DNA from: Bacillus sp. FJAT-28004
GTDB taxonomy: Bacteria; Bacillota; Bacilli; Paenibacillales; Paenibacillaceae
Assembly: GCF_001280845.1 (NCBI RefSeq)
Contig: NZ_LGHP01000002.1
Span: 899,439-963,438, forward strand
Length of the DNA stretch: 64,000 nucleotides
Direction: 5' to 3'
Shown here: positions 16,380-58,095 of the stretch, piece by piece
Position numbering within the stretch: the stretch's first letter is position 1
Layout: each line of letters begins with the position of its first letter
Translations under genes and position numbers: made by a program
Notes under the pieces: generated by a model
What the model was told of the DNA's origin: nothing
The model's input: the letters and a program-made list of their open reading frames with translations, nothing else
Database searches by the model: none

Positions 16380-16456
16380 GCATACAAGAAATCGTAAGGA
16401 TAGTTAGTTGGTTCGGACGATGACCAAACTCGAGAACATGTGAAAGGAGATACAAC

Positions 16457-33469: not shown

Positions 33470-33496
33470 TGCAGCATAAAAGGAGGTCGTGACCAC

Positions 33497-35775: not shown

Positions 35776-37575
35776 ATGTTATATCCCATAGTAAGTGATT
35801 CCCGTGCAATTATTGATTTAAACGGTATTTGGAAATTCAAGCTGGATACCGGAAAAGGTTTTGAAGAGAAATGGTTTCAATCTTCGCTTAACGAAACGAT
35901 GAATATGGCAGTTCCTTCGTCTTTCAATGATGTAGGTGTAACCGCCGATATTCGTAATCACGTAGGCTGGGTATGGTATGAGAAAGAATTTACGGTACCG
36001 AGTATCTTCCGTTCCCAGCGAATCGTGCTGCGGTTTGGTTCGGCAACGCATACGGCTAAGGTTTATGTGAATGGAGAGCTCACGATGGAGCATAAAGGCG
36101 GTTTCACCCCTTTTGAAGCCGAGCTTAGCTCAAATCTGGTCGGAGGTTCAAACCGTGTAACGGTTGCCGTAAATAGTATCGTGGACGAAACAACGCTCCC
36201 GATTGGGATCTACACGGAGAAAGATATTCCCGGCGTAGGCAAGGTTGCTCGGAATCAGCCGAACTTCGATTTCTTTAATTACGCAGGAATTCATAGACCA
36301 GTCAAGATTTATTCGACTCCCCAAACGTATGTCAAAGACATTACGATCGTTCCTTCAATAAATGAGAAGTCAGGGATTGTGAACTATTCTTTGGATGTTG
36401 TGGGAGAGGCTGACGTTAGAGTAAGCGTATTAAATGCAGACGGTGCAATAGTCGGAGAAGCGGGCGAAGCGCAAGGCGAAATCAGAATCGCCGATGTGAA
36501 GCTGTGGGAGCCGCTTAACGCTTATTTGTACAATCTTAAAGTAGAGCTATTAAACGGCGATCAAATCGTTGATGTATATTTCCAGCCTTTCGGAGTCAGA
36601 ACAGTTGAGGTCATTGACGGAAAATTCCTGATTAATAATAAGCCGTTTTATTTCAAGGGATTCGGCAAGCATGAAGATACCCCTATTCACGGAAGAGGCT
36701 TTAATGAATCGGCCAATGTTATGGACTTCCGATTAATGAAATGGATCGGAGCCAATTCATTCCGTACGGCACACTATCCTTATTCGGAAGAGCTAATGAG
36801 ATTAGCCGATCAAGAAGGCTTAGTCGTTATCGATGAGACTCCTGCTGTAGGACTTCATTTGAATTTTATGGCCGCGATGTTTGGCGGAGGTGCAAAAAGG
36901 AATACTTGGGCTGAACTAAAAACGCAAGAACATCATCAAGAAATAATTAAAGAGTTGATAGCTAGGGACAAAAACCATGCTTGCGTGGTCATGTGGTCGA
37001 TTGCGAATGAACCGGCTTCTGAGGAAGAAGGGGCATACGAGTATTTTAAACCGCTTGTTGAACTGACTAAAGCCATTGACCCGCAAAAAAGACCGGTAAC
37101 TATCGTCACGCATTTAATGTCAACACCCGATACATGCAAAGTAGCAGAGCTTGTCGATGTACTCGCATTAAATCGGTATTACGGTTGGTATGTGGATGGC
37201 GGGGATTTGGAAAATGCGAAAGTGAATCTCCGTAAGGAGCTGAACGGATGGCGCGAGCGCTGTCCAAACAAACCGATTGTGATGACCGAATACGGCGCCG
37301 ATACGGTTGCAGGATTACATGATATCGATGCCGTCATGTTTACGGAAGAATATCAAGTCGAGTACCTGCGTGCGAATCATGAAGTTTTTGATGAATTCGA
37401 TAATTTCGTCGGCGAGCAGGTGTGGAACTTTGCCGATTTTAATACAAGCCAAGGATTTATCCGTGTGCAAGGGAACAAGAAGGGTATTTTCACAAGGGAC
37501 AGAAAACCCAAATACGCAGCCCACGCACTGCGCGAAAGATGGTCTGCCATTCCGGATTTCGGTTATAAGCAATAA
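35776..37575 (+). CDS. uidA: Beta-glucuronidase
   Basis: Glycoside hydrolase family 2 enzyme that releases D-glucuronate from beta-glucuronides, 599 aa against 603 in E. coli. Domain order: sugar-binding jelly roll (about 10-180), immunoglobulin-like domain (about 182-275) and TIM barrel (about 277-590). The acid/base Glu412 is in WSIANEPAS and the nucleophile Glu505 in MTEYGADT, almost the same numbering as E. coli (413 and 504). The motif [12 protein letters not shown] is also diagnostic. No signal peptide, so it acts in the cytosol. AAAGGAGTAGAGAG precedes the ATG. It is followed by a GPH symporter and is probably controlled by the divergent AraC protein. Confidence 0.95.
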
Positions 37576-37696: not shown

Positions 37697-39091
37697 ATGG
37701 AACAAACTGCAAAGCTGTTGGAAAAGACGGAGGCTCCGGCCAGTCAAGGCGTTAGAAAATTCGGGATCAGAGATAAAGTCGGCTATATGTTCGGAGACGT
37801 TGGGAACGATTTGTTTTTTACATTAATTAGCGGTTATTTAATGTTGTTCTATACGGATATTTATGGAATATCCGCTGCGACTGCCGGCATGATTTTGCTA
37901 GTAGCTAGAGTACTGGACGCATTATTTGATGTGGCATGGGGAGCTTATGTCGATTCTAGGCCTGTCGGTGCGAGAGGTAAATTCAGACCTTACCTGTTAT
38001 ATAGTGCTATTCCTGTAACCGCTTTCGGTATTCTGACATTTACTTATTTTCCGGTCGCCGCAGGCTGGCAGGTTTTTCTGGCAACGGCTACCTACATTAT
38101 ATGGGGCTTGGCTTACTCTACAATAAACATACCTTATGGTTCATTAGCATCCGTTATCACATCGGATCCCGTGGAAAGAACATCGCTTTCTACATTCAGG
38201 ACGATGGGTGCTATTCTAGCTAATGTTTTTATTATGACGGTAGCGCCGATTATTATATTTGGCAGCGGAAAAACGCCTACAGCAAACGGATTTGTAACGA
38301 TAGCCATCATTTGCGCCGTGTTGGCGATTATATGTTACTTAAGCTCCTACCGAATGACGGTAGAAAGAATAAAAACAGTTAAGCCTGCCTCTGAGAAAAT
38401 AAATTTATTGATAACCGTAAAAGGCTTATTTAAAAACAAAGCACTACTAGGCATCATGCTCGCTTCCTTCGGAATGATGGTCTCATTGATGGTGGTATCC
38501 GCAATAACGCCTTATTTGTTCAAAGATTATTTCAAAACACCGGGACTAATCTCGATTGCTGGTTTAATTGGATTGGGTTCCGCGCTCCTTGCCATGCCGC
38601 TCGTCTCTCCTCTAGTAAAGAAATACGGAAAAAAAGAGAGCGCTGTCATCGGCTTGATTATTGCGGTTGTCATTAATTTCATTATGTTCGTTCTACCGAT
38701 CACAAGCCCTTATGTATATATTGGTTTTTACTTTGTATCAAGCTTTGGCATGGCTTTCTTAAATATATTGGTTTGGGCCATGGTCTCGGATTGCATCGAT
38801 TATCAGCAGTTCATTACAGGCAAACGTGAAGAGGGAACCGTATATTCCGTCTACTCCTTAGTTCGTAAAATTGGTCAAGGGGTTGCGGGAGGACTCGGCG
38901 GTTTTGCGCTCGTTGCCGTTGGGTATAATTCCGGATTGCAGATTCAAACGGAAGAAGCTGCGAGAGGAATAAAGAATTTGATCACACTGATTCCCGCGCT
39001 TGGCTCGCTGATCGCGTTAGTTGCTATTGTGTGGATTTACAATTTATCGAAGCAGCGTTTGGTCTGGTTAAATGAGCAGTTAAAAAATTAA
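37697..39091 (+). CDS. Glycoside-pentoside-hexuronide:cation symporter (MFS)
   Basis: A 464-aa membrane protein with twelve hydrophobic segments, of the GPH family that includes UidB, MelB and XynB. The start region FGIRDKVGYMFGDVGNDLFFT and the early DALFDVAWGAYVDSR motif are characteristic, as is WAMVSDCIDYQQFITGKREEG late in the protein. It probably imports glucuronides or glucuronate with H+ or Na+. Position 121 bases after uidA, in the same direction, supports this. GGGGGATAAGAC precedes the ATG. Confidence 0.88.
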   Translation: MEQTAKLLEKTEAPASQGVRKFGIRDKVGYMFGDVGNDLFFTLISGYLMLFYTDIYGISAATAGMILLVARVLDALFDVAWGAYVDSRPVGARGKFRPYLLYSAIPVTAFGILTFTYFPVAAGWQVFLATATYIIWGLAYSTINIPYGSLASVITSDPVERTSLSTFRTMGAILANVFIMTVAPIIIFGSGKTPTANGFVTIAIICAVLAIICYLSSYRMTVERIKTVKPASEKINLLITVKGLFKNKALLGIMLASFGMMVSLMVVSAITPYLFKDYFKTPGLISIAGLIGLGSALLAMPLVSPLVKKYGKKESAVIGLIIAVVINFIMFVLPITSPYVYIGFYFVSSFGMAFLNILVWAMVSDCIDYQQFITGKREEGTVYSVYSLVRKIGQGVAGGLGGFALVAVGYNSGLQIQTEEAARGIKNLITLIPALGSLIALVAIVWIYNLSKQRLVWLNEQLKN

Positions 39092-43282: not shown

Positions 43283-44266
43283 TCACCTTTGGGAGGTAGA
43301 GTCGCGGATCACGAGTTCAGGCTCTAAGTATACGGTTTTTAGTGATTCCGGGTCGTCAATAAGATCGAGAATGGTTGTTGAAATGACGGATGTTATCGTA
43401 TCTATGGCTACGCCGACAACGGTCATCGGAGTTTCAAGGTCTTCCATTTGAGGCAGGTTGTCATAACTGACTACGGAAATATCCTGCGGAACGCGAAGTC
43501 CATGCTCTCCGATAGCCCGAATGATGCCGCGTGTCAAATCGATGCCGCCACTGATGACGGCTGTAGGACATGCCGTTTGCTCCAGCATCGTACGTGCGGC
43601 CATGTATCCGTCGTGAAATTCTAAGCCATTCATGTGAAGCACGGCGTCGTTCCTGACCTGTAAGCCCAGACGGATCATTTCGTCGCGAAAAGCTTCGATC
43701 TTTACGGTCTGCAGCGGATCTTGCGTGTTAGGTTCGCCAATATAGGCGATATCTTTATGACCGAGTTCAACCAAGTGACGTACGGCAAGACGAACGGCTT
43801 GGCCTCTGTTTACGTCAACGGCAGAGTACGGTGTGTAGCCTGCAGCGCCATAAGTCAGAATGGGGATCTGCAGCGGAATTAACTTGTTGAAGCTGGAAAT
43901 ACTATCCCTGTCCCCAAAGACGAGTATGGCGTCTACTTGGTAACGACGGAAGATTTCGATCGCTGATTCCAAATGGCTTATGGAGAGCAAAGTAACGTAA
44001 CCCTTCTTTTCGAGTTGTTCATTAATCTTTGTAATCAGGGAGGAAAGGGCGGCGCGTTCAATGGATGGCCATACGACGCCAATCGCTCCGCTTCTTCGGG
44101 AGACGAGGCTTCGGGCTGCGATATTGGGTTGGTACCCCATTTCCTTTGCGATAGAAAGTATATGCTGTTTTGTTTTGTTCTGTACGAGCGGGCTGTCTCT
44201 CAATGCCTTGGAGACAGTGGAGAAACTGACGCCCGCTCGGTCTGCGATGTCTTTAATGGTTACCAT
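43283..44266 (-). CDS. LacI family transcriptional regulator
   Basis: A 327-aa repressor. The N-terminal HTH is VTIKDIADRAGVSFSTVSKA, followed by the hinge helix region NIAARSLVSRRSGAIGVVWP. The periplasmic-binding-protein-like ligand domain (about 60-325) has GGIDLTRGIIRAIGEHGLRV. It is divergent from the mannonate/gluconate operon. Two identical 14-bp palindromes TAACAACGTTGTTA, one before that operon and one before gnd, are the likely operators. The inducer is probably a pathway sugar acid such as gluconate, mannonate or fructuronate. In Bacillus, LacI-type regulators control uronate genes (ExuR), but orthology is not certain. Confidence 0.9.
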   Translation of the reverse strand: MVTIKDIADRAGVSFSTVSKALRDSPLVQNKTKQHILSIAKEMGYQPNIAARSLVSRRSGAIGVVWPSIERAALSSLITKINEQLEKKGYVTLLSISHLESAIEIFRRYQVDAILVFGDRDSISSFNKLIPLQIPILTYGAAGYTPYSAVDVNRGQAVRLAVRHLVELGHKDIAYIGEPNTQDPLQTVKIEAFRDEMIRLGLQVRNDAVLHMNGLEFHDGYMAARTMLEQTACPTAVISGGIDLTRGIIRAIGEHGLRVPQDISVVSYDNLPQMEDLETPMTVVGVAIDTITSVISTTILDLIDDPESLKTVYLEPELVIRDSTSQR

Positions 44267-44364
44267 GGATTCCCTCCGAAAGGCACTAGTCCGAGTTCTG
44301 ATTTATGTCGTTCACTTTATCATAGAATACATTTTTTGCAAATGAAAGCGGCATATTTTTCGTA

Positions 44365-44412
44365 TAGACAGCAATGGGATATTCGGATATCATAAAAATA
44401 ACAACGTTGTTA
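44365..44412 (+). promoter_or_regulatory. Promoter and LacI-type operator of the nickel/gluconate operon
   Basis: TAGACA (44365-44370), 17 bases, and TATCAT (44388-44393) form a good sigma-A promoter. The perfect palindrome TAACAACGTTGTTA lies at 44399-44412, across the expected transcription start. Bound repressor would block initiation. The same palindrome recurs at 51582. Confidence 0.8.
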
Positions 44413-44438
44413 ATTTGGGATTAAAGGTGGTTTTATAG

Positions 44439-45200
44439 ATGTTTGAATTACAAAATACCGTTTCAGTCGTAATCGGAGGCAATGGCGTGTTAGGCAGTGC
44501 CATGTCTGCCGCGCTTGCGGAAGCAGGATCAAAAGTGGCGGTCGTCGGCAGGGACATGGAAAAAGCTCGGCTCGTTTGTGAGCAGATCGAACGGAATGGC
44601 GGAATAGCGATTCCTTTGAAGGCGGACGCGACTAAAAAAGAGGAACTGCAGTCGGTTTTGAATGAAGTGCTTGAATGGGGCGGCCGTGTGGATACGCTTG
44701 TTAATGCCTCGGGGACAAATAGCGCGACACCGTTTTTTGATCTCGAAATGGAGGAATGGGACCGGATTATGGATGTTAACCTCAAAAGCGTAGTTTTGGC
44801 CAGCCAGGTTTTTGGTAAAAGGATGATCGAGCAGGGGGATGGCGGCTCCATAATCAATATTTCTTCCGTATCCTCTTCACCGCCGCTGTCTCGGGTATTT
44901 ACTTACTCGGTATCGAAAGCTGGGGTAAATAGCGTAACTCAATATTTGGCCAGGGAGTTCGCTCCGAGCAAGGTAAGGGTTAACGCGATCATTCCCGGAT
45001 TCTTCCCGGCAGAACAAAACAAAAAAATCTTATCACCGGACAGAGTGGAATCGATTATGAAGCATACGCCAATGAACCGCTTCGGAGATCCGGAGGAACT
45101 TAAGGGAACCATTGTTTACTTGGCCTCATCAAAAGCATCATCATTTGTCACCGGAGCGATGATCCGGGTTGACGGAGGATTTGGAGCGATGACAATATGA
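44439..45200 (+). CDS. SDR family oxidoreductase, probable D-mannonate oxidoreductase
   Basis: Classical short-chain dehydrogenase, 253 aa. The cofactor loop is VVIGGNGVLGSAMS, the NAG-type motif NASGTN, the catalytic Ser in ISSVSSSPPLS, Tyr and Lys in YSVSKAG. The segment IIPGFFPAEQNKKILSPDR and the end SSFVTGAMIRVDGGF resemble the Bacillus YjmF/UxuB type, which interconverts D-fructuronate and D-mannonate, rather than generic SDRs. Gluconate 5-dehydrogenase is the main alternative. It is the first gene of the operon and overlaps the next gene by four bases. Confidence 0.78.
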   Translation: MFELQNTVSVVIGGNGVLGSAMSAALAEAGSKVAVVGRDMEKARLVCEQIERNGGIAIPLKADATKKEELQSVLNEVLEWGGRVDTLVNASGTNSATPFFDLEMEEWDRIMDVNLKSVVLASQVFGKRMIEQGDGGSIINISSVSSSPPLSRVFTYSVSKAGVNSVTQYLAREFAPSKVRVNAIIPGFFPAEQNKKILSPDRVESIMKHTPMNRFGDPEELKGTIVYLASSKASSFVTGAMIRVDGGFGAMTI

Positions 45201-46474
45201 GTGATTTACTTCGAAGTTTAGTTGAAAATACACCTATTCCGAAGCTGGTAAAAATTCGTCAGTCGTTTGATGACACCATACTTGAAGATCCCATAGGAGA
45301 ACTGATTGGGCGGTTGCGTACTGCCGATTCGATGACTGGGATTACTGCAGGACAAAGGGTTGCGGTTGCCGTAGGCAGCCGGGGAATTTCGCGAATCGAT
45401 GAGCTCACAAAGACCGTTATTGACGAATTAAAGAGAATCGGCGCCGAGCCTTTCATTGTGCCATGTATGGGAAGTCATGGGGGAGCGACAGCAGAAGGGC
45501 AAACGGAGGTGCTTGCCCATCTCGGCATCGATGAGACGCGTATGGGTTGTCCGGTCCGTTCATCGATGGAGGTCGTAGAGCTTGATCGCCTGCCGAACGG
45601 CTTGCCGATTTACTGTGACAAAATCGCCGCTACGGAGTCGGATGCCATCATCGTCATTAACCGCATAAAACCGCATACGGCTTTTCGAGGGGCGATTGAA
45701 AGCGGCATGTTTAAAATGATCTCGATCGGACTGGGGAAGCAAAAAGGAGCAGAGGCTTGCCATCAGTTGGGCTTCAAGTATATGGCTGAGAATGTACCGG
45801 CAATGGCTCGTGTGATGATCGAGAAGCTTCCGATCCGGTTTGGGGTAGCGGTCGTGGAAAACGCGTATGACCAAATCTGCCGGATTGAGGTTCTCGGAAC
45901 GGATACGATGGAGGAACGTGAGAAGGAGCTGCTAATCGAAGCGAAGAGCCGACTCCCGCAAATCCTTTTCAATGATCTGGACGTTCTTGTTATTGATTAC
46001 ATCGGAAAAAATATTAGCGGTGACGGAGCGGATCCGAATATCACGGGCAGGTATCCGACGCCTTATGCGCACGGGGGACCTGAGGTGAACAAGATGGTTG
46101 TTCTCGACCTGACGCCAGAGTCCCAGGGCAATGCAAACGGAGTGGGCACAGCCGATTTCACGACAAGCAGACTAGTTAGCAAGACGGATTGGCCAGCGAC
46201 TTATGCCAATGGACTAACCTCTACGGTCTGTGCGCCGACGAAACAAGCGACAACGCTTGAGAATGATCGCGATGCCATTAAGGCAGCGATCAAAACCTGC
46301 AACATTTTGGATTACACACAGTGCAAGCTGGTTCGTATTCGGGATACGCTGCATCTTGGAACGATTGAAATTTCCGAATCACTGCTTGAGGAAGCCAAAA
46401 GAAATCCGCGCATCGAGATTTTGGAAGGGCCTTACGAGTGGAAGTTCGACGAGGAAGGATTTTTGCCAAAATGA
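45197..46474 (+). CDS. LarA-superfamily nickel-pincer enzyme, probable D-gluconate/D-mannonate 2-epimerase
   Basis: A 425-aa lactate racemase homologue (DUF2088). Members use the nickel-pincer nucleotide to racemise or epimerise 2-hydroxyacids by hydride transfer; some characterised members are D-gluconate 2-epimerases. Candidate active-site residues are His94 (PCMGSHGG), His160 (NRIKPHTAFRG), Lys173 (SGMFKM) and His189 (EACHQLG). The 16-residue spacing of Lys173 and His189 equals that of the cofactor lysine and nickel-ligand histidine in LarA (184 and 200). Context points to gluconate/mannonate as substrate: mannonate dehydrogenase before it, gluconokinase after it, both with 4-bp overlaps, and the cofactor genes in the same operon. 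The substrate is inferred. Confidence 0.83.
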   Translation: MSDLLRSLVENTPIPKLVKIRQSFDDTILEDPIGELIGRLRTADSMTGITAGQRVAVAVGSRGISRIDELTKTVIDELKRIGAEPFIVPCMGSHGGATAEGQTEVLAHLGIDETRMGCPVRSSMEVVELDRLPNGLPIYCDKIAATESDAIIVINRIKPHTAFRGAIESGMFKMISIGLGKQKGAEACHQLGFKYMAENVPAMARVMIEKLPIRFGVAVVENAYDQICRIEVLGTDTMEEREKELLIEAKSRLPQILFNDLDVLVIDYIGKNISGDGADPNITGRYPTPYAHGGPEVNKMVVLDLTPESQGNANGVGTADFTTSRLVSKTDWPATYANGLTSTVCAPTKQATTLENDRDAIKAAIKTCNILDYTQCKLVRIRDTLHLGTIEISESLLEEAKRNPRIEILEGPYEWKFDEEGFLPK

Positions 46475-47985
46475 GTGCGGATGCCAAAATAGTCATAGCC
46501 ATTGATATCGGAACGACGAGCACGAAGACGTTGGCCGTCGACCTGACAGGACAGATCCTTGGAAGCCACTCGATTGAGTATCCGCTGCACACGCCGAAGC
46601 AAGGGTATGCCGAACAGGATCCCGATGTCATCTGCGAGGCTGTAATTGATAGCGTTGGTCATGTTATGAAGAAAGGCAGTTTTCAGACTGGGGAAATACG
46701 GTGTGTTGCCTTTAGCTCGGCCAATCACAGCTTGATACTGCTTGATGCGAACGGACTTCCGCTCACACCCAGCATCACCTGGGCGGATTTGCGCAGCGCA
46801 GCCCAGGCCGAGCGGTTGCTGAATGACGGAACGGGATTATCGGTCTATTCGCGGACGGGCACGCCGATCCACCCGATGTCACCGCTCGTCAAGCTGATCT
46901 GGATGAGGGAGGAAAGGCCGGATCTATTTCATTCCGCGCATCATTTCGTCGGAATAAAGGAATATATTTTGAATAAGTTATTTGGAATTATGATGATGGA
47001 CCATTCGATAGCAAGCGCTACCGGTTTATTTAATCTCGAGACGTTAACATGGGATAAGGAAGCATTAATTCTGGCAGGCATTCGTGAGGATCAATTGCCC
47101 AAGCTTGTTCCTTCGACGGAGCGAATCGATGGGCTGAACAGGGAAGCGGCAGAACGGATGGGACTTGGTACGGACACGCCATTCATTCTCGGGGCGCAGG
47201 ACGGAGTATTAGCCAATCTTGGAATTGGTGCGGTGGAGGAAGGTGTGCTGGCAGTGACGATTGGCACAAGCGGGGCTGTACGGACGACCGTAAAACGGCC
47301 TACCTTCGATGCGGATGGGAAACTGTTCTGCTACGCTTTGACGAAAGATCATTGGTTTGTCGGCGGACCTTCCAACAACGGTGCTATCGTAGCCAGGTGG
47401 ATCTCGGATCGCCTCTACCCTGGGAAATCGATTGATGAGGTGCTCCCTTTAGCCGCTGCTGTGCCTCCGGGATCCAACGGCCTGCTTTTTCTACCTCTCT
47501 TATCGGGAGAAAGGGCTCCTTTCTGGGATGCCCAGGCCAAAGGTGTCATGTTCGGATTGACGCTTGCGCATAGGGAGACGGATATGCTTCGCGCTGCAAT
47601 GGAAGGCGTTCTGTTTCAGATTACCGCAATCGTTTCCTTAATGAAGCAGGCAGGTGAAAAGCCTAAAGAGGTCAGGGCATCCGGAGGTTTTGCACGTTCT
47701 GCCTTATGGTGCCAAATGATGGCCGACATGCTGGGCGTGCCCGTACGGGTACCCGAGTCAGTAGAAAGCTCAGGACTCGGAGCCGCTCAGCTTGGATTAT
47801 ACGCTATGGATGGCTGCCGCGGCCCGCTGCTGAGGTGGAAGGAGCAGAAAGGCAGCTTCTTTGAACCCGATATGAGCAATCATAAGCATTATCAAAAAAT
47901 ACTTCCACTATATTTAAGCATATACGATCGATTGAAAGAGCCTATGAGGGAAATATCGAAACTGCAGCATATGTCGGTTGGATGA
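46471..47985 (+). CDS. gntK: Gluconokinase (FGGY family)
   Basis: Phosphorylates D-gluconate to 6-phosphogluconate, 504 aa. ATG 46471 overlaps the upstream stop (ATGA); GAGGAAGGA lies about 11 bases before it. Domain I starts VIAIDIGTTSTKTLAVDLTG; HTPKQGYAEQDPDVICEAV and SSANHSLILLD, then SITWADLRS, are close to Bacillus GntK and unlike glycerol or xylulose kinases. Domain II has ASGGFARSALWCQMMADMLG (FGGY signature and adenosine site). The stop overlaps the next reading region. Its product is the substrate of Gnd, encoded 3.7 kb downstream behind the same operator. Confidence 0.88.
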   Translation: MSADAKIVIAIDIGTTSTKTLAVDLTGQILGSHSIEYPLHTPKQGYAEQDPDVICEAVIDSVGHVMKKGSFQTGEIRCVAFSSANHSLILLDANGLPLTPSITWADLRSAAQAERLLNDGTGLSVYSRTGTPIHPMSPLVKLIWMREERPDLFHSAHHFVGIKEYILNKLFGIMMMDHSIASATGLFNLETLTWDKEALILAGIREDQLPKLVPSTERIDGLNREAAERMGLGTDTPFILGAQDGVLANLGIGAVEEGVLAVTIGTSGAVRTTVKRPTFDADGKLFCYALTKDHWFVGGPSNNGAIVARWISDRLYPGKSIDEVLPLAAAVPPGSNGLLFLPLLSGERAPFWDAQAKGVMFGLTLAHRETDMLRAAMEGVLFQITAIVSLMKQAGEKPKEVRASGGFARSALWCQMMADMLGVPVRVPESVESSGLGAAQLGLYAMDGCRGPLLRWKEQKGSFFEPDMSNHKHYQKILPLYLSIYDRLKEPMREISKLQHMSVG

Positions 47986-48011
47986 ATTTAACGGAAGGCG
48001 GTGTCAATAGT

Positions 48012-48827
48012 ATGCATGATAAATACAGCAAGCTGCAGGCGATTCTAACGGAAATGGAATCGGTTGTGGTGGCGTTCTCCGGAGGCGTTGACAGTACCTT
48101 TCTTCTGGATGCCGCAATAAAAACACTGGGAAGCGAGCGGGTCTTGGCGGTTACGGCCGACTCAGAAACCTATCCGACGGAAGAGCTTGAGGAAGCGATC
48201 CGGCTGGCGAAGAGCATTGGCGCGACTCATAAGGTAATCGAAACGTCTGAATTAAGTATTCCTGGCTACAAAGAGAATAATGCAAACCGTTGTTATTTTT
48301 GCAAAAAGAGTTTATTCGAGCATATCGAGCCGTTCATCGAGGACGGAGCTTACCGCCATATTGTCTACGGGCTCATTGCGGATGACATGAATGAGCATAG
48401 GCCTGGGGTTCAAGCGGCGAAAGAACGAGGTGTGCGGGGACCTTTGCAGGAAGCCGGACTTTATAAGGAAGAGATCCGTGATCTCTCCCGTGAGCACGGA
48501 CTGCCCACTTGGGATAAGCCGTCATTCGCTTGTCTTTCCTCTCGGATTGCCTACGGCGAGACGATTACGATCGAGAAGCTTGGACGTGTCGGAGAAGCTG
48601 AACGCTATATTCGTTCACTAGGTTTTGGGCAAGTAAGGGTCAGGAGTCATGGCGATATCGCACGAATCGAAGTGGAACCGAGGGCAATGGAGCTGCTCAT
48701 TAGCCACGCCTCCATCATTTCAGAGCGATTGAAAGAGCTTGGATTTATCTACGTTGCGATGGATCTTTCCGGTTACCGCAGCGGAAGTATGAATAAAGTG
48801 CTTGAACTTGGGGGCTCGGCGATATGA
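48012..48827 (+). CDS. larE: Nickel-pincer cofactor sulfur transferase LarE, three-cysteine type
   Basis: ATP-dependent enzyme of the PP-loop family that converts the two carboxylates of the LarB product to thiocarboxylates, 271 aa. The PP-loop is SGGVDS (residues 23-28). Three cysteines stand out: Cys94 and Cys97 in NRCYFCKKS and Cys174 in SFACLSSRIAYG. Lactobacillus LarE has only the last, which it sacrifices; a three-Cys set is the form expected to hold a [4Fe-4S] cluster and to turn over catalytically. ATG 48012 is preferred (AAGGCGGTG upstream); ATG 47982 overlaps the kinase stop. It overlaps larB by four bases. Confidence 0.9.
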   Translation: MHDKYSKLQAILTEMESVVVAFSGGVDSTFLLDAAIKTLGSERVLAVTADSETYPTEELEEAIRLAKSIGATHKVIETSELSIPGYKENNANRCYFCKKSLFEHIEPFIEDGAYRHIVYGLIADDMNEHRPGVQAAKERGVRGPLQEAGLYKEEIRDLSREHGLPTWDKPSFACLSSRIAYGETITIEKLGRVGEAERYIRSLGFGQVRVRSHGDIARIEVEPRAMELLISHASIISERLKELGFIYVAMDLSGYRSGSMNKVLELGGSAI

Positions 48828-49498
48828 ATGAGTTTGAGGATCTTGGATTTTGTAAGCTGGATGTGGGTCGCAACGAGCGGACGGGACATCCGGAAGTCGT
48901 TTTTGGACAGGGAAAGACCGTGGATCAGGTTGAAACCATTTTCTCAAGGCTTGTGGAAAATCATGGAAGGGCACTTGTCACCCGGGCAACGGCCGAGATG
49001 GCGGATCGAGTGATCGCAAGGCACCCTGAGGCTCGTTATGATAGTGGATCTCGACTTATCTCGCTGGGTCAATCCGCGCGCAAGCTCCCTGGAAAAGTGG
49101 CGGTTCTGACCGGAGGGACTTCGGATATACCGGTGGCGGAGGAAGCGGCAGGGACAGCGGAATGGATGGGCTGCGAGGTTGATCGTATCTTTGACGTCGG
49201 AGTAGCGGGAATCGATCGGCTTCTTAGCCAAAAGGAACGCATCCGGGAAGCGTCTGTTGTGATTGGGGTTGCCGGTATGGAGGGCGCCTTAGTCAGCGTT
49301 GTCGGAGGACTCGTCCGCAGGCCGGTTATAGCGGTACCTACTTCTATCGGTTATGGCGCTAATCTTCAAGGGATTACAACGCTTCTTGCCATGATGACCT
49401 CCTGCGCAGCCGGCGTGACCGTCGTCAATATCGATAATGGCTTCGGGGCAGGGTTTCAAGCAGCAATGATCTTACAATTGGTAGCGGAGGGCACTTAG
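48824..49498 (+). CDS. larB: Nickel-pincer cofactor biosynthesis protein LarB
   Basis: Carboxylates and hydrolyses nicotinic acid adenine dinucleotide to pyridinium-3,5-biscarboxylate mononucleotide, the first step of the cofactor pathway. The protein is 224 aa. The N-terminal part is LDVGRNERTGHPEVVFGQGK. The C-terminal PurE-like domain has VAVLTGGTSDIPVAEEAAGT and GMEGALVSVVGGLV, with IAVPTSIGYGANLQGITTLL near the end. Start ATG overlaps the larE stop and the gene ends one base before larC, so the three are translationally coupled. Confidence 0.94.
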   Translation: MNEFEDLGFCKLDVGRNERTGHPEVVFGQGKTVDQVETIFSRLVENHGRALVTRATAEMADRVIARHPEARYDSGSRLISLGQSARKLPGKVAVLTGGTSDIPVAEEAAGTAEWMGCEVDRIFDVGVAGIDRLLSQKERIREASVVIGVAGMEGALVSVVGGLVRRPVIAVPTSIGYGANLQGITTLLAMMTSCAAGVTVVNIDNGFGAGFQAAMILQLVAEGT

Positions 49499-49499
49499 A

Positions 49500-50894
49500 A
49501 TGAGAACTGTCTATTTGGATTGTATTTCAGGCATCGCAGGGGATATGACACTTTCCGCACTCGTGGACCTGGGCGCAGACGAGGAGTATATTGTCAGCCA
49601 TTTATCGAAACTTCCGATCGATCCTTTCACGATGGAATTCGTAAAGGTGGACCGAAGAGGCATAACCGCGAAATGGTTGAAGCTAAGCTTCGATCACAGT
49701 GAGCATAACGGCGGACACGATCATCACCATCATTCGCATGATCACGCACATGCTCACACACATGACCATCATCATGAGCATTCGCATGATCATTCACACG
49801 ATCACCATCATGAGCATTCGCATGCACACGCACATGATCACCATCATGAGCATTCACATGATCACGCACATGACCATCATCATGAGCATTCGCACGATCA
49901 TTCACACGACCATCACCATCATGAGCATTCACATGAGCACAGAAAAGCATCTGACATCATAAGAATGATCGAGATTTCAACGCTGCCGGATCGAGTGAAA
50001 GAGAGAAGTCTGTCCATCTTTCGCTTAATCGCTGAAGCGGAAGGCAAGATCCATGGCATGGACCCAGCCGATGTTCACTTTCACGAAGTGGGAGCGATGG
50101 ACTCCATTTTGGACGTTATTGGCGTTTGCCTTGCACTGGAGAGCTTGGATGCTGGCAAAATTATTGTCTCTCCTGTACCAACGGGAACGGGCAGGCTGCG
50201 TATGGCCCACGGCTTATATCCGATCCCTGCTCCCGCTACGGCAGAGCTGCTGCGAGGCGTACCATTATCTGAGTTCACGGCTAAAGGGGAATTGACAACG
50301 CCGACAGGTGCTGGGATCGTCAAAGCGCTGGCCTCAGGTTTTGGTCCATTGCCCGCAGGAACGATTGACCGAATCGGATATGGCGCAGGTACAAAAAATT
50401 TCGACCATCCGAACGTTGTCAGAGCTGTTTTATATCAACAGGAGCAAGAGAAAAATTTCAACGAGACGATTGTCGTACTCGAAGCGCAGGTAGATGATTC
50501 AACGGGGGAGACACTTGGTTTTGCCATGGAAAGGCTGTTCGAAGCCGGAGCTCTCGATGTTTACCATACTCCTGTCTATATGAAAAAAAATCGTCCAGGC
50601 GTCCTTGTCACTGTTCTATGCCATCCGGCAAACAGCTCGCGGTGCGAGGAGACGATGCTTGCAGAAACATCGACTTTCGGCGTACGCAGGAGCGAATGGC
50701 AGCGTAGGGCGCTTGCTCGCCAGTGGATTCAGGTGGAAACTCCTTTCGGATCGGTGAGAGTGAAGCAGGCTCTAGATGGAGAAAAAATCATTCGCCAATC
50801 GCCGGAATATGAGGATGCGGCCCAAGCCGCTAGAACGTACGGCATTCCTCTCGAAACCGTCTACAGCGAAGTCTATAAACTGCTCAGAGAATAG
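49500..50894 (+). CDS. larC: Nickel-pincer cofactor nickel insertase LarC, with long His-rich insert
   Basis: CTP-dependent cyclometallase that inserts nickel into the pincer ligand, 464 aa. It opens with the family motif YLDCISGIAGDMTLSALVDL. Residues 66-147 are a His-rich tract with about 47 histidines in 82 residues, built from repeats like HDHHHEHSHDH, followed by the conserved ADVHFHEVGAMDSILDVIG, ELTTPTGAGIVKAL and YGAGTKNFDHPN. The C-terminal half (EAQVDDSTGETLGFAMERLF) is in the same frame, so this is one continuous protein. In Lactobacillus plantarum larC is split and needs a programmed frameshift. The His tract probably stores or delivers nickel. GGAGGG precedes the ATG. Confidence 0.94.
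   Translation: MRTVYLDCISGIAGDMTLSALVDLGADEEYIVSHLSKLPIDPFTMEFVKVDRRGITAKWLKLSFDHSEHNGGHDHHHHSHDHAHAHTHDHHHEHSHDHSHDHHHEHSHAHAHDHHHEHSHDHAHDHHHEHSHDHSHDHHHHEHSHEHRKASDIIRMIEISTLPDRVKERSLSIFRLIAEAEGKIHGMDPADVHFHEVGAMDSILDVIGVCLALESLDAGKIIVSPVPTGTGRLRMAHGLYPIPAPATAELLRGVPLSEFTAKGELTTPTGAGIVKALASGFGPLPAGTIDRIGYGAGTKNFDHPNVVRAVLYQQEQEKNFNETIVVLEAQVDDSTGETLGFAMERLFEAGALDVYHTPVYMKKNRPGVLVTVLCHPANSSRCEETMLAETSTFGVRRSEWQRRALARQWIQVETPFGSVRVKQALDGEKIIRQSPEYEDAAQAARTYGIPLETVYSEVYKLLRE
49695..49940 (+). repeat. Tandem DNA repeat encoding the LarC histidine tract
   Basis: Variants of a unit built from CATGATCACCATCATGAGCA recur at about 24-60-base spacing. Third-position differences (CAT or CAC, GAT or GAC) show that units have drifted while the His/Asp/Glu/Ser pattern is kept. 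The tract can be expected to vary in length between strains. Confidence 0.85.
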
Positions 50895-50908
50895 GAGTAG
50901 GGAAACTA

Positions 50909-51568
50909 GTGGAGTTAATAGGTTTGTTAGCATTGTCTATATTGCTGGGTCTGCGCCATGGCATAGATTTGGACCATGTGGCAGCTTTAGCTGATATAAC
51001 GGGAGGCAGCTCGGGCTCGAAAAAAGAGAGGATGAAGCTGTCTCTGTGGTACGCGGGCGGGCATGAAGCGGTCGTTTTCGTTCTTGGCTGCAGTATACTT
51101 GTATTTGCTTGGAGTGTACCGATTTGGGCCGATCAATGGATGGGCAAGGCAGTAGGCATAACCTTGATCTTTATGGCCATCCTTATTTTGATTGGAAGAA
51201 GAAATGGGAACGGTGCCTATTGGAGCCGCGGCATCGCTATATTTCAGAAGCTTAGGCGGAGAAACGGCGAGCCGTTTACTTTTACGCGTCGGAATGTATT
51301 TACAGTCGGAGTCATCCATGGTATCGGTGCGGAAACGCCGACACAGCTTCTTTTGTTCACCACGGTCGCCGGAGTAGCCGCAACGAACCACGGTATGCTT
51401 GCGGTAGCCGCGTTTAGCATTGGATTACTACTCTCTCACGCAATCATAGCGATTGTCAGCATTTGGTTTCATGATCTTGCCAAAAAAGTTCGTCCGCTGC
51501 TTCCAGTTACGATGTATGCCGCTTGTTTATTCAGTTTTGTTCTTGGAGTAAGCTATTTGCTGGAGTAA
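50909..51568 (+). CDS. High-affinity nickel permease-like membrane protein
   Basis: A 219-aa membrane protein with about six hydrophobic segments. Near the N-terminus it has RHGIDLDHVAALADITGG; His17 and Asp22-His23 form the HX4DH signature of NiCoT/HupE-UreH-type nickel and cobalt transporters. A second histidine-bearing motif is YAGGHEAVVFVLG, and VIHGIGAETPTQLLLF is a third conserved polar segment. The start is GTG, about six bases after GGAGTAGGG. It is the last gene of the larE-B-C operon, which fits supply of nickel for the LarC reaction. Cobalt cannot be excluded from sequence. Confidence 0.87.
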   Translation: MELIGLLALSILLGLRHGIDLDHVAALADITGGSSGSKKERMKLSLWYAGGHEAVVFVLGCSILVFAWSVPIWADQWMGKAVGITLIFMAILILIGRRNGNGAYWSRGIAIFQKLRRRNGEPFTFTRRNVFTVGVIHGIGAETPTQLLLFTTVAGVAATNHGMLAVAAFSIGLLLSHAIIAIVSIWFHDLAKKVRPLLPVTMYAACLFSFVLGVSYLLE

Positions 51569-51581
51569 TTGCGGTCTTTTT

Positions 51582-51595
51582 TAACAACGTTGTTA
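51582..51595 (+). promoter_or_regulatory. Second LacI-type operator, upstream of gnd
   Basis: TAACAACGTTGTTA, identical to the palindrome at 44399-44412, lies 14 bases after the permease stop and about 80 bases before gnd. A small stem GGATG-CCTGG-CATCC follows at 51602-51616. A promoter is probable (TTGCGG at 51569 as a weak -35) but not clear. Confidence 0.78.
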
Positions 51596-51674
51596 TTGAT
51601 AGGATGCCTGGCATCCTTCTCTATATAAGCAATAAAGAGATTGAAGCATATTTGAATAAAGGGAGAGAAAGTAT

Positions 51675-53084
51675 GTGAATAGAAAACAGATTGGTGTCAT
51701 TGGCCTTGCTGTCATGGGGAAAAATTTAGCATTAAATTTGGAGAGCCGTGGATTTGAGGTTGCCGTCTTTAATCGATCTTATGAAAAAACAAAAGAGTTA
51801 CTTGCAGAAGCTGACGGCCGAAAGCTATACGGATATGAATCTTTAGGGGACTTTGTCGCTTCGCTTGCGCTGCCAAGGAAAATTCTGTTGATGGTTAAAG
51901 CCGGGAATGCGACTGACGATACGATTAAACAGCTCCTTCCATTCCTGGGTAAAGAAGATATTATTATTGACGGCGGCAATTCGTACTTTGTTGATACACA
52001 GCGGAGAACGAAGGAGCTGGAGGCGCTAGGCATTCGTTTTATCGGTTCAGGCGTATCCGGCGGGGAGCAGGGCGCGTTGGAGGGACCCGCGATTATGCCG
52101 GGCGGAACCAAGGAGGCTTATGCACATGTTGAGCCATATTTGACCGCTATTTCTGCCAAAGTCGAGGGCGTGCCTTGCTGTACGTATATCGGGCCGGACG
52201 GAGCGGGTCATTATGTCAAGATGGTACACAATGGTATCGAATATGGAGACATGCAGCTGATTTGCGAATCTTATCATCTGCTAAAAGAAGTCATCGGTGC
52301 GGAGCCGGAGGAACTCCATCAAATTTTCAAGAAATGGAACGAAGGGGAACTGAACAGCTACCTGATTGAGATCACGCAGGATATATTCACCAAGATCGAT
52401 CCGGAAACGGGTAAAAGAGTGGTTGATATTATCAAGGATTCTGCCGGGCAGAAGGGCACAGGAAAATGGACCTCGCAAAATGCCCTTGATCTCGGCGTTC
52501 CATTGCCTGTCATCACGGAATCTGTTTTCATGCGTTATTTATCATCTCTGGGAGAAGAGCGTAAGAGAGCCTCGGCGATGTTTGACAAGCCTGTTGTATC
52601 GAAATATAGCGGAAACCGGGATGATTTCATTGAGCTGGTGCGGAAAGCGCTGTATGCAAGCAAAATATGCTCCTATGCACAAGGTTTTGCTCAAATGAAA
52701 ATGGCTTCCGATACTTATCAATGGGACCTGAATTGCGGTAGCATTGCCATGATATTCCGTGGAGGTTGTATTATCCGTGCGCAATTCCTTCAAAACATCA
52801 AGGATGCCTTTGATAACGATGCGAATCTTCCTAATCTGCTCGTAGACAGCTATTTTAAAAATATTGTGAATGATTATCAGCAAGCATGGCGGGAAGTGGT
52901 TGCAGCTGCAGCGCTGAATGGCATCCCTGTACCGGCATTCGCTTCGGCATTATCTTACTTTGACGCGTACCGTACTGAGCATCTCCCGGCAAATCTGCTT
53001 CAAGCTCAGCGCGATTATTTCGGAGCACATACGTTTGAGCGTATTGATAAAGACGGCAGTTATCACTATCAATGGAATAACTAA
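51675..53084 (+). CDS. gnd: 6-Phosphogluconate dehydrogenase, decarboxylating
   Basis: Oxidises 6-phosphogluconate to ribulose 5-phosphate and CO2, 469 aa, full length. The start is GTG (ATG two bases earlier reads straight into TGA), with GGGAGAG upstream. Rossmann motif [20 protein letters not shown]; family signature [19 protein letters not shown]; catalytic Lys in [21 protein letters not shown]-terminal [16 protein letters not shown]. It is preceded by the same operator as the gluconokinase operon. This links it to gluconate use rather than to the oxidative pentose phosphate pathway alone. Bacilli often carry a second gnd-type gene (gntZ) for this purpose. Confidence 0.94.
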
Positions 53085-53101
53085 GAAAAGGGGAAATGAA
53101 A

Positions 53102-54364
53102 ATGAGTACACAAATGGATATGAGTTTGGTTGATCTTCGGCAGACGGTTGAGCGCTTGGCACTTAGCACGCCAGTCACCGATATGCATACGCATTTATAT
53201 GCGCCTGAATTCGGAAGTTTGCTTTTATGGGGCATTGATGAATTACTAACCTATCATTATTTGATTTCGGAGAGTTTCAGGTGGTCGGAGGAAGAGTACG
53301 ACCACTTCTGGTCTATGACTAAGCGGGAGCAAGCGGATTGGATATGGAAATTGCTTTTCCTTGACCATTCGCCGGTAAGCGAGGCAGCTACAGGATTTAT
53401 AACGATTCTCAAACGGCTTGGACTGGACGTATCCTCTCGTAACCTTGACGATTACCGCCTAGCGCTTGAAAAACGTACGGTGCATGAACAGGTCGATACG
53501 GTCATGCAAATCGCGGGAATCGAGAAAATCGTGATGACTAACGACCCGTTCGATCCCGTAGAACGTCCTGTCTGGCAATCAGGGAAAGGTAAAACGGATC
53601 CACGGTTTTATGCAGCGCTTCGCGTGGATGCACTGCTCAATGATTGGCCTCATGCTGTGAGCGAGCTTCAAGGTCTAGGTTATGATGTACAGGCGGAGTG
53701 GACGGAACGGACGAAAGAGGAGACCCGCCGTTTTCTATCCGAATGGATCACTCGCATGGATGCGCTCTACCTTGCCGTGTCCATGCCGGGCGATTTCACA
53801 TATCCAGCCGATGATCATCGGAGCAAAATGATTGATGAGGTTATGATTCCGGTATGCCAAGAGCAAGACATTCCGTTTGCGCTGATGATTGGCGTTCGGA
53901 GAAAAGTAAATCCTTCGCTCGGATTGGCAGGAGATATGAGTATGCAGTCCGACGTGTCGGCCGTGGAAGCGTTGTGCCGCCGATACCCGGAGCAGAAGTT
54001 TCTTATTACGATGCTGGCAAGAGAAAACCAGCATGAGCTGACGGTGCTTGCCCGCAAGTTCCGTAATCTGATGATTTTCGGCTGCTGGTGGTTTCTTCAC
54101 ATCGAGTCGATGGTCGAAGAAATGACGCGGTTCCGCTTAGAGCTTCTTGGGACATCGATGATTCCGCAGCACTCTGACTGCCGCGTCTTCGAGCAGCTGA
54201 TCTATAAATGGGAGCATTCCAGAAGAATTATCGGGAACGTGCTGGCGGACAAATACGAGAAGCTGCATCACAGCGGCTGGACCGTTACGGAAGAAGAAAT
54301 ACAGAGAGATTTAGATGATATGTTGAACCGGAATTTTTGGCGCTTTCTTGGCAAGGAGCAATAA
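53102..54364 (+). CDS. Uronate isomerase-like protein (amidohydrolase fold)
   Basis: A 420-aa metal-dependent TIM-barrel protein that resembles glucuronate isomerase-like members of the amidohydrolase superfamily. The N-terminal metal motif is VTDMHTHLYAPEFG (His-X-His). Then come DELLTYHYLISESFRW and DPFDPVERPVW, with a second His/Asp-bearing region late (TSMIPQHSDCRVFEQLIYKW). It is shorter than classical UxaC (about 470 aa), so it is a divergent branch. ATG 53102 is eight bases after AAAGGGG. Translation follows gnd in the same operon. Conversion of D-glucuronate to D-fructuronate would complete the pathway encoded around it; that role is inferred. Confidence 0.65.
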   Translation: MSTQMDMSLVDLRQTVERLALSTPVTDMHTHLYAPEFGSLLLWGIDELLTYHYLISESFRWSEEEYDHFWSMTKREQADWIWKLLFLDHSPVSEAATGFITILKRLGLDVSSRNLDDYRLALEKRTVHEQVDTVMQIAGIEKIVMTNDPFDPVERPVWQSGKGKTDPRFYAALRVDALLNDWPHAVSELQGLGYDVQAEWTERTKEETRRFLSEWITRMDALYLAVSMPGDFTYPADDHRSKMIDEVMIPVCQEQDIPFALMIGVRRKVNPSLGLAGDMSMQSDVSAVEALCRRYPEQKFLITMLARENQHELTVLARKFRNLMIFGCWWFLHIESMVEEMTRFRLELLGTSMIPQHSDCRVFEQLIYKWEHSRRIIGNVLADKYEKLHHSGWTVTEEEIQRDLDDMLNRNFWRFLGKEQ

Positions 54365-54718: not shown

Positions 54719-56068
54719 ATGATTAAGAAATGGATGAAGGGCTCTGCAATTGTTTTCACGACTGCGGCAATGCTTCTGACAGGCTGTTCCTCATCAACTG
54801 GAACAAAAGACACAAACGCCGTAAGCAATGAGGGGAGCAAAACGGACCCCGTCACGATTAAGGTTCGTACGTGGTACAACCTTGAAAACGAGAAATTCGA
54901 TGTAGTGAAGAGGGAATTCGAGAAACAGTATCCAAACATCAAAGTTGATTTCATATCCGCGGGGGATAACAATTCTAACGAACACGTGAAAAAAGTGGAT
55001 TTGGCCGCAGCTTCAGACGAGGACATGGACGTCATCATGTTCTCCTCACCCGCTCATTATGTACAGCGGATCGAAGTTGGGATGTTAGAGCCGCTTGATG
55101 ATTATTTGAACAAAGAGGAGATCGAATTTGACGACGAATATGCCGTCAATACGCAAGTGAATGACAAGTATTATGGTCTGCCAGGAAAATCAGTGAATTT
55201 CTTCGTAGCTATCAACGAAGACCATTTGAAGGAAGCTGGGCTGCCGCTTCCGACGGATTGGACTTGGGACGAATATCTGGAATATGCCAAGAAAATGACC
55301 AAACAGGATGGCGAGAAAAAACACTATGGCACCTACTTCCATACCTGGACTAATCCGTTTGCGATGCTCGGATTAGTTAGCAATACAGAAAACGGCTACT
55401 TGGTCACAGATGATAACAAATCTGCGAACATTATGAATCCGGCTATGCGTAAGTCGCTGGAAATTCGCTTGCAAGCAGAGAAGGATAAATCGGCGACGCC
55501 TTACGCCGAGGTGCTTAGCCAAAAGATGAACTATCGTCCGCAATATTTCACGCAAGCTGCAAGTATGATAGCGACAGGCACGTTCTTTATTCCCGAAGTA
55601 GGTGGAACGGAAAAAGTGCCTGCTACGTTCAAAACGGTTTTCGCACCGTATCCGAAAGTAAATAAAGAAGACCCTATGAATGCAACGATCTCATCTGATT
55701 ATGTCACCATGTACAGCAAGTCGAAGCATAAAGAGGAAGCCTATACGTTCATCCGCTGGTTTACCACGGAAGGGCTTATGGTTCAGGGGCGAAATATTCC
55801 ATCCTGGAAAAAGGCTAATATGGAAGAAGTGCTGGATAAGATCATTGCTGCGACAGCTAACCCTGAAATGATTGACAAGGAATCCGTGTTGAACTTTTTG
55901 AAAAATAGCGTGATGATCCCAGCGAAAAACCCGCCAGCTTATTCGGCGGAAGTTGAAAAAGTGATGCAAGAAGAGTTTGATCGCATGATGCTTCAAGGAC
56001 AGGATATCGATAAGACAATGAATGCAGCACAAGAAAGAATTCAAAAGGTGATTGATTCCAACCAATAA
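54719..56068 (+). CDS. Extracellular solute-binding lipoprotein, copy 1 (sugar ABC transporter)
   Basis: Family 1 solute-binding protein, 449 aa. The signal peptide ends in lipobox LLTGCSSS, anchoring the protein at the membrane face. The mature part shows the usual two-lobed fold: VTIKVRTWYNLENEKFDVVK, EDMDVIMFSSPAHYVQRIEV, YGLPGKSVNFFVAINEDHLK and PTDWTWDEYLEYAKKMTKQD. A second, very similar gene of exactly the same length follows at 58096. AAGGGGGAAG precedes the ATG. It delivers sugar to the two permeases that follow. A duplicated promoter element lies both before it and after it. Confidence 0.92.
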   Translation: MIKKWMKGSAIVFTTAAMLLTGCSSSTGTKDTNAVSNEGSKTDPVTIKVRTWYNLENEKFDVVKREFEKQYPNIKVDFISAGDNNSNEHVKKVDLAAASDEDMDVIMFSSPAHYVQRIEVGMLEPLDDYLNKEEIEFDDEYAVNTQVNDKYYGLPGKSVNFFVAINEDHLKEAGLPLPTDWTWDEYLEYAKKMTKQDGEKKHYGTYFHTWTNPFAMLGLVSNTENGYLVTDDNKSANIMNPAMRKSLEIRLQAEKDKSATPYAEVLSQKMNYRPQYFTQAASMIATGTFFIPEVGGTEKVPATFKTVFAPYPKVNKEDPMNATISSDYVTMYSKSKHKEEAYTFIRWFTTEGLMVQGRNIPSWKKANMEEVLDKIIAATANPEMIDKESVLNFLKNSVMIPAKNPPAYSAEVEKVMQEEFDRMMLQGQDIDKTMNAAQERIQKVIDSNQ

Positions 56069-56109
56069 CCGATTGATTTCATCTAGTCGAATATAGAAGA
56101 TGCCAGGGG

Positions 56110-56161
56110 CGAAAAGGTGATTCTTACCGCGTGATGCAGGGAATGGCCTTTTCGTTCTTTT
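56110..56161 (+). terminator. Intrinsic terminator between binding protein 1 and the permeases
   Basis: CGAAAAGG and CCTTTTCG pair across a 29-base loop, followed by TTCTTTT. It separates binding protein 1 from the permease genes, which have their own promoter copy. Confidence 0.65.
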
Positions 56162-56190
56162 AGAAATGACTTATCGACAAGCTGTCGAAT

Positions 56191-56274
56191 TTTGCGCAAA
56201 TTATTTCTCAAAGAGAAAAATTATTGCCCTGTATTCGAATGTAGTCCTCCCTATAATGAAACCATAGACGAACA
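56191..56274 (+). promoter_or_regulatory. Promoter region of the permease genes, copy B of the duplicated element
   Basis: TTTGCGCAAATT, TCTCAAAGAGAAAAA, TTATTGCCCTGTATTCGAA, CTCCCTATAATGAAA and CATAGACGAAC match copy A at 54474 block for block. TATAAT is at 56251-56256. The cre-like site found after copy A is missing here. The conserved blocks upstream of -10 are the likely binding site of the YesN-type regulator at 61345. Confidence 0.72.
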
Positions 56275-56290
56275 ACATGAGGTGATCAAA

Positions 56291-57229: not shown

Positions 57230-57239
57230 GGGGATTCCT

Positions 57240-58070: not shown

Positions 58071-58095
58071 AAAAGAGAAACCAGGGGGAAACGAC

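Follow-up and report, generated by a model that had tools for sequence, protein, structure and literature searches.

In the 64,000-nucleotide stretch of the Bacillus sp. FJAT-28004 genome analysed here (the window), two operons that stand behind identical operator-like palindromes, at positions 43283 to 54364, probably encode a complete candidate nickel-dependent shortcut from D-glucuronate to D-ribulose 5-phosphate. In the proposed route, a BH0493-type isomerase would convert D-glucuronate to D-fructuronate, a short-chain dehydrogenase/reductase (SDR) would reduce the latter to D-mannonate, and a homologue of LarA would invert C2 of D-mannonate by the LarA hydride-transfer mechanism, giving D-gluconate. 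An FGGY kinase would phosphorylate D-gluconate, and 6-phosphogluconate dehydrogenase (Gnd) would decarboxylate the product to D-ribulose 5-phosphate. LarB, LarE and LarC would make the nickel-pincer nucleotide that loads the LarA homologue, a member of LarA group 22, while a NicO permease would import nickel and a LacI-family protein would keep both operons repressed as long as it has no pathway intermediate bound. We infer this chain of intermediates from the families of the genes and from the company they keep. Since gluconate has no C2 epimer other than mannonate, the substrate of the LarA homologue follows if it acts between the SDR and the kinase. We hold our confidence in the route at probable and no higher, because the SDR and the kinase score below their curated cut-offs and because the LarA homologue may instead act after the kinase, as in Lactobacillus suebicus.

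An original prediction made on this DNA had named two sets of genes in ten open reading frames at these positions. All ten were found, with the families it had given, by family models and, for the isomerase, by a PDB match (scores below are in bits). The LacI-family regulator gene (43283..44266, - strand; Pfam LacI 58.3, Peripla_BP_3 93.5) is divergent from the first operon, and the genes of the two operons are all on the + strand. The first palindrome (44399..44412) ends up 27 bases ahead of the start of the SDR gene (44439..45200), which is predicted to encode a fructuronate reductase of the D-mannonate oxidoreductase type. There follow the genes of the LarA homologue, a predicted D-mannonate/D-gluconate 2-epimerase (45197..46474), and of the FGGY kinase, a predicted gluconokinase (46438..47985), then larE (47982..48827; TIGR00268 360.8, cut-off 150), larB (48824..49498; NF033503 281.7, cut-off 175), larC (49500..50894; TIGR00299 and NF052512 over cut-off, LarC1 219.8 with cut-off 90, LarC2 156.4 with cut-off 50) and a NicO-type permease gene with a predicted role in nickel uptake (50909..51568). 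The permease is barely above its Pfam cut-off (PF03824 28.4, cut-off 27.7) and far under the NCBIfam NicT cut-off. Start and stop codons overlap (ATGA) at four junctions from the SDR through LarB, which is the pattern expected for an operon, and the kinase is likely to start at the ATG at 46471, overlapping the LarA stop. The second palindrome (51582..51595) lies 13 bases past the permease stop and ahead of gnd (51675..53084; TIGR00873 724.5, cut-off 426.7). The terminal open reading frame (53096..54364) has no Pfam match and resembles the solved uronate isomerase BH0493 over almost its entire length (PDB 2q08 and others; for 2q08, E 2.3e-156 over residues 15-420 of 422). LarC carries a histidine-rich insert at residues 73-147, with 47 histidines within residues 64-150, and a histidine-rich stretch (27-52 histidines per 80 residues) was found at the corresponding place in all 22 related loci having a LarC match. 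The insert possibly serves for nickel storage.

The 14-base palindrome TAACAACGTTGTTA has exactly 2 perfect copies in the genome of 7,478,722 bases, both in the window and at the two sites given above, so the identical operators of the original prediction hold as the sole exact copies in the genome. At one mismatch the genome contains 2 further places and a reversed control pattern reaches 3 places, and the count at three mismatches in the window is at chance level (21 of 100 shuffles). Since the one- and three-mismatch counts were no better than these controls, only exact copies of the palindrome were counted. For comparison with relatives we used the best 80 of at least 559 loci, with flanks of up to 10 kb, from Paenibacillus and its near kin and one Tumebacillus. 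In a block of 21 loci (L013-L033), the palindrome stands ahead of the SDR gene in every one with 0-2 mismatches; ten shuffled palindromes with half-sites of equal composition gave no copy at one mismatch or fewer in these 21 loci. An orthologue of the LacI protein (at least 45% identity) was found in 23 of the 80 loci, which are these 21, L044 (a fragment) and L091. L091 has an exact palindrome directly ahead of uxaE, the tagaturonate epimerase gene, and is the only one among the 59 loci outside the block with a palindrome at one mismatch or fewer. The palindrome scan gave none in L044, whose short contig includes 20% of the LacI gene, and none in L034 and L035, which are without LacI. An additional palindrome ahead of gnd, the uronate isomerase gene or uxaE was seen in 11 of the 21 loci, and in 7 of the other 10 the isomerase gene comes after larC.

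The LarA homologue was assigned to group 22 by NCBIfam model NF052515 (544.5, cut-off 400), which is its best and sole over-cut-off model, so it does not fall into the GntE groups 19/20. The original prediction had taken the protein for one of the gluconate 2-epimerase type. Membership of the LarA family stands, while the group is 22 and not the assayed groups 19/20. A structure model was obtained with a predicted local distance difference test (pLDDT) of 94.6 and a predicted TM-score (pTM) of 0.90, and in a fold search with this model the high-Z structures were all of the LarA family, GntE2 included. Sequence searches of the PDB with the single protein and with a 67-row profile brought up no LarA entry, and the residues were therefore mapped through six other LarA homologues (profile comparison with probability 97.9 and E 5.8e-13, reaching residue 270). 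The catalytic histidines H94 and H160 (H108 and H174 of LarA), the phosphate arginine R62, the cofactor lysine K173 and the nickel histidine H189 (R75, K184 and H200, respectively) are in place and invariant in 67 sequences. Group 22 thus retains the second catalytic histidine, unlike groups 14, 15 and 17, which are without it (PMC12611868). Epimerisation of gluconate outside the GntE branch has been described for LarAH10 and termed a possible convergence (PMC11770544). Group 22 is a large family: among the scored candidates listed, 7,998 of 7,999 match the LarA homologue of the window at E of 0.001 or less, a number that may include other groups. In the literature, mostly outside subscription journals and supplements, we found no assayed member of group 22, nor any paper on this system under group 22 or Paenibacillus LarA/nickel pincer.

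The comparison of gene neighbourhoods, which the original prediction had proposed, was run on the same related loci, with contents counted by tblastn in the 71 full-length loci (9 shorter ones excluded) at identity thresholds of 60% for the SDR, 45% for the kinase and 60% for gnd. The SDR was found near LarA in 70 of the 71, SDR and kinase in 67, and gnd as well in 52. LarE was present in 21 of these loci, LarB and LarC in 20 and a BH0493-type isomerase in 17, while UxaE adjoining LarA or behind the same operator was seen in 4 (6 of all 80). In two loci (L072 and L084), UxaE, LarA, kinase, SDR and gnd occur together, which is the enzyme set of Thermotoga with another LarA group. In L135, which belongs to another genome of the same phylum, the successive genes are those of UxaC and Gnd, then two others, then those of LarA, the SDR and the kinase. 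Some sets are damaged: gnd of P. macquariensis (L018) has an internal break with part of the N-terminal region lost behind an intact operator (15896-17196), gnd is split in L086, and the kinase is reduced to pieces in L087. In order to cover the phylum, we used a sample of 398 genomes, the source genome counted in. A group-22 protein over cut-off was found in 85 of them and in none of the 6 other genomes of the same family in the sample. Among 29 group-22 loci of the phylum, 7 have a LarA at least 60% identical to that of the window, and 6 of these 7 have an SDR no more than about 1.5 kb away; the seventh (L098, the same as L136) has dehydratases, a PfkB kinase and a 2-keto-3-deoxy-6-phosphogluconate (KDPG) aldolase as its neighbours. 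None of the 22 LarAs at 41-53% identity has an SDR within this distance. The substrate prediction would hold for one branch and not for the whole of group 22.

The original prediction also had the set replace mannonate dehydratase, 2-keto-3-deoxygluconate (KDG) kinase and KDPG aldolase. Indeed no match for UxuA, KDPG aldolase or PfkB lies inside the window, and all of these matches lie elsewhere in the genome. The whole-genome search for uxuA, kdgK and kdgA that it had called for found a full-length UxuA next to an SDR that scores strongly as UxuB type (446.3, cut-off 281; C1:431188-433130), a second, weaker UxuA-like frame (C1:2470949-2471881), a canonical UxaC (C12:243415-244812, 737 bits), three KDPG-aldolase-family genes and a PfkB kinase (C12:438595-439479) whose best family is KDG kinase, at 195 bits and under the cut-off of 400. 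The genome also has two full-length 6-phosphogluconate dehydrogenases and one short match besides the gnd of the window. We therefore rejected replacement of the classical route in the source genome, where the proposed route would stand beside UxaC-UxuB-UxuA-KdgA. As the source genome keeps the UxuA route, the predicted nickel dependence of uronate use fails there and can hold only in relatives without UxuA, where it is conceivable.

We searched for UxuA in 49 genomes of relatives, drawn from 50 of the 80 loci. A match at E of 0.001 or less was found in 39, of which 38 are over cut-off and 32 have a long match of more than 480 bits; the other 10 gave no match. Among the 11 relatives without an over-cut-off UxuA, ManD reached its cut-off in none: there was no ManD match in P. 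antarcticus, P. athensensis and Tumebacillus avium, and the other 8 have lower-scoring enolase-superfamily matches of up to 412 bits. KDPG aldolase was found in 10 of these 11 and canonical UxaC in 1. The UxaC model (PF02614) misses BH0493-type isomerases, including the copy in the window, so the negatives cover canonical UxaC, plus the BH0493 type near LarA. The clearest case is P. antarcticus (L017), with SDR, LarA, kinase, LarE, LarB, LarC, an intact gnd and a BH0493-type isomerase; genes for a beta-glucuronidase (76% identity) and for a GPH symporter (46%) are in the vicinity. NicO was not at the locus, and the genome gave no match to UxuA, ManD or canonical UxaC. P. macquariensis resembles it but is no clean case, given its broken gnd and low-scoring enolase-superfamily matches. 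In P. athensensis (L028), LarA is accompanied by the SDR and the isomerase, with kinase, gnd and lar genes not in the flanks, and in T. avium (L036) the flanks of LarA hold neither SDR nor kinase.

Several observations weigh against the proposed route. PRK08277 is the best family for the SDR, although the score is under the curated cut-off (272.9, cut-off 281), and gluconokinase TIGR01314 is the best of 12 families for the kinase, yet again under its curated cut-off (538.4, cut-off 648.55). In the profile alignment, two residues are missing from group 22 at the place of the conserved aspartate (D72 in LarA), whose equivalent contacts the cofactor ribose in solved relatives (PMC12611868). The second catalytic histidine is followed by T161-A162 instead of Glu-Val, the residues usual in GntEs at these two of the four signature positions (PMC11770544), and the equivalent of K298 was not located, the alignment ending at residue 270, with the invariant K271 as a candidate. 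Among the full-length relatives, the kinase was not found in the flanks of 4 of the 71 loci and gnd not in those of 19, and NicO was found in 4 (5 of all 80). An SDR within about 1.5 kb is missing from 23 of the 29 phylum loci. The source genome keeps UxaC, UxuB, UxuA and KDPG aldolases. Finally, 6 of the 11 relatives without an over-cut-off UxuA (G420, G426, G439, G440, G444 and G446) show neither a canonical UxaC nor a BH0493-type gene near LarA, which argues against a general role of glucuronate as the substrate across the relatives.

In one alternative reading, which we consider unlikely, the kinase acts first: the FGGY protein would be a mannonate kinase and the LarA homologue would invert C2 of 6-phosphomannonate to give 6-phosphogluconate. 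Extracts of Lactobacillus suebicus perform the steps in this order, with the epimerase gene unknown there (PMC6978723), and both the 110 bits by which the kinase falls short of the gluconokinase cut-off and the active-site residues that group 22 has of its own are consistent with it. However, GntE1, GntE2, LarAH10 and LarAH15 use unphosphorylated mannonate (PMC7583248, PMC11770544), and gluconokinase is still the best family for the kinase. We also give a low probability to a LarA homologue that inverts C2 of some other sugar acid, such as altronate or a pentonate, in a set serving another or a mixed sugar-acid diet. The 66%-identical LarA of L136, whose neighbours are dehydratases of the altronate/galactarate and ILVD/EDD types together with a PfkB kinase and a KDPG aldolase, argues for this, as do the six relatives in which no uronate isomerase was seen and the SDR and kinase scores under cut-off; but the product is fixed by gnd in the regulon, in loci having it, and the supply by a BH0493-type isomerase, UxaC or UxaE, in loci having one of these. 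An epimerase running from gluconate to mannonate, so as to feed the classical route through the UxuA and KDPG aldolases of the source genome, is very improbable, since a gluconokinase-like kinase and gnd share the regulon and kinase-bearing gene sets persist in genomes without a UxuA match. The route from mannonate to gluconate ahead of the kinase remains the best reading.

This part of the original prediction was strengthened by the comparison of relatives. The route itself was already in print as a prediction, made for Thermotoga: the mannonate-gluconate-kinase-Gnd proposal is credited to Rodionova et al. 2012 (PMC6978723; also PMC3750489). The gnd-uxaE-uxaD-gntE-gntK genes of Thermotoga maritima would likewise lead from fructuronate through mannonate to gluconate by means of a LarA homologue, gluconokinase and gnd in one regulon, and UxaE is part of that locus (PMC3750489). 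A gene set of this type, which combines a source of fructuronate with a reductase, a LarA homologue, a kinase and gnd inside a single locus or regulon, was found in the window and, with UxaE, in L072 and L084. The window differs from Thermotoga maritima in that its LarA is of group 22 rather than group 20, a BH0493-type isomerase takes the place of UxaE, the operon also holds nickel-cofactor genes and the NicO permease, and the regulator is of LacI type whereas the UxaR of Thermotoga is of GntR type. Epimerase activity has been shown for GntE2 of Thermotoga, and its reaction probably admits mannonate to the pentose phosphate pathway (PMC7583248, 2020). Compared to GntE1, GntE2 and LarAH15 (PMC7583248, PMC11770544), the LarA homologue of the window, a predicted epimerase, is of another group, has Thr-Ala for Glu-Val and is missing the cofactor-ribose aspartate. 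We rejected its identification as a known GntE on the group 22 model, the aspartate gap and the Thr-Ala loop. The galacturonate route of Lactobacillus suebicus also links mannonate to 6-phosphogluconate and pentose phosphate metabolism, but there mannonate is phosphorylated first (PMC6978723). The classical UxaC-UxuB-UxuA-KdgK-KdgA route shares the first two steps up to mannonate and then differs, with dehydration followed by aldol cleavage and no nickel cofactor. What is new here is the LarA branch, group 22, in a regulon that carries its own nickel-cofactor genes.

Upstream in the window are a beta-glucuronidase (35776..37575, + strand; PRK10150 896.6, cut-off 544), a possible source of glucuronate, and a GPH-family symporter (37697..39091, + strand; TIGR00792 350.5, cut-off 231.35), possibly for glucuronide uptake, which the original prediction had proposed as suppliers. 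The genes are real, and the symporter scores 271.9 with the glucuronide transporter model PRK09848, under its cut-off of 528. The whole-genome scan for exact copies gave no operator near either gene, and we rejected their membership of the same regulon. The link is one of neighbourhood, and the pair neighbours the cluster in 4 of the 80 relatives. Three genes that presumably resemble a spore-germination operon separate the pair from the cluster. A Gfo/Idh dehydrogenase gene and a xylose-isomerase-like TIM-barrel gene are located at 32309-34357; the two also accompany the cluster at close range in L017 and L018, and the L135 set contains a pair of the same families. On the other side, 54719-59445 holds ATP-binding cassette (ABC) transporter genes, where two permease genes lie between genes for two solute-binding proteins that share 78% identity. 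The first binding protein likewise comes after the isomerase gene in L013 and L016. Elsewhere, the region upstream of the LarA set in L051 (6567-8869) holds genes for a BadF-type ATPase and a family 4 glycoside hydrolase, and each of these gene families recurs in 12 loci. L133:3333-11713 has LarA and SDR near pectinesterase and oxaloacetate-decarboxylase beta-subunit genes, with a 3-deoxy-D-arabino-heptulosonate 7-phosphate (DAHP) synthase gene upstream. In L136:8909-17707, the group-22 LarA is accompanied by two dehydratases (one of the ILVD/EDD and one of the altronate/galactarate type), a PfkB kinase, a KDPG aldolase, a DctM transporter and the product of an enolase-superfamily gene, and epimerisation may perhaps precede dehydration there.

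The operon provides a direct substrate prediction for one branch of group 22. Whether the SDR-linked branch is one more line of D-mannonate/D-gluconate 2-epimerases, of separate origin and with an altered cofactor pocket, giving nickel-dependent glucuronate use in Paenibacillaceae without mannonate dehydratase (most clearly in P. antarcticus), we put at about even chances. The natural strains named here as having no detected mannonate dehydratase are suited to tests of nickel dependence on uronates. If true, the proposed route would be a second nickel-cofactor solution by which uronate catabolism joins the pentose phosphate pathway, one in which the regulon also carries the cofactor genes.

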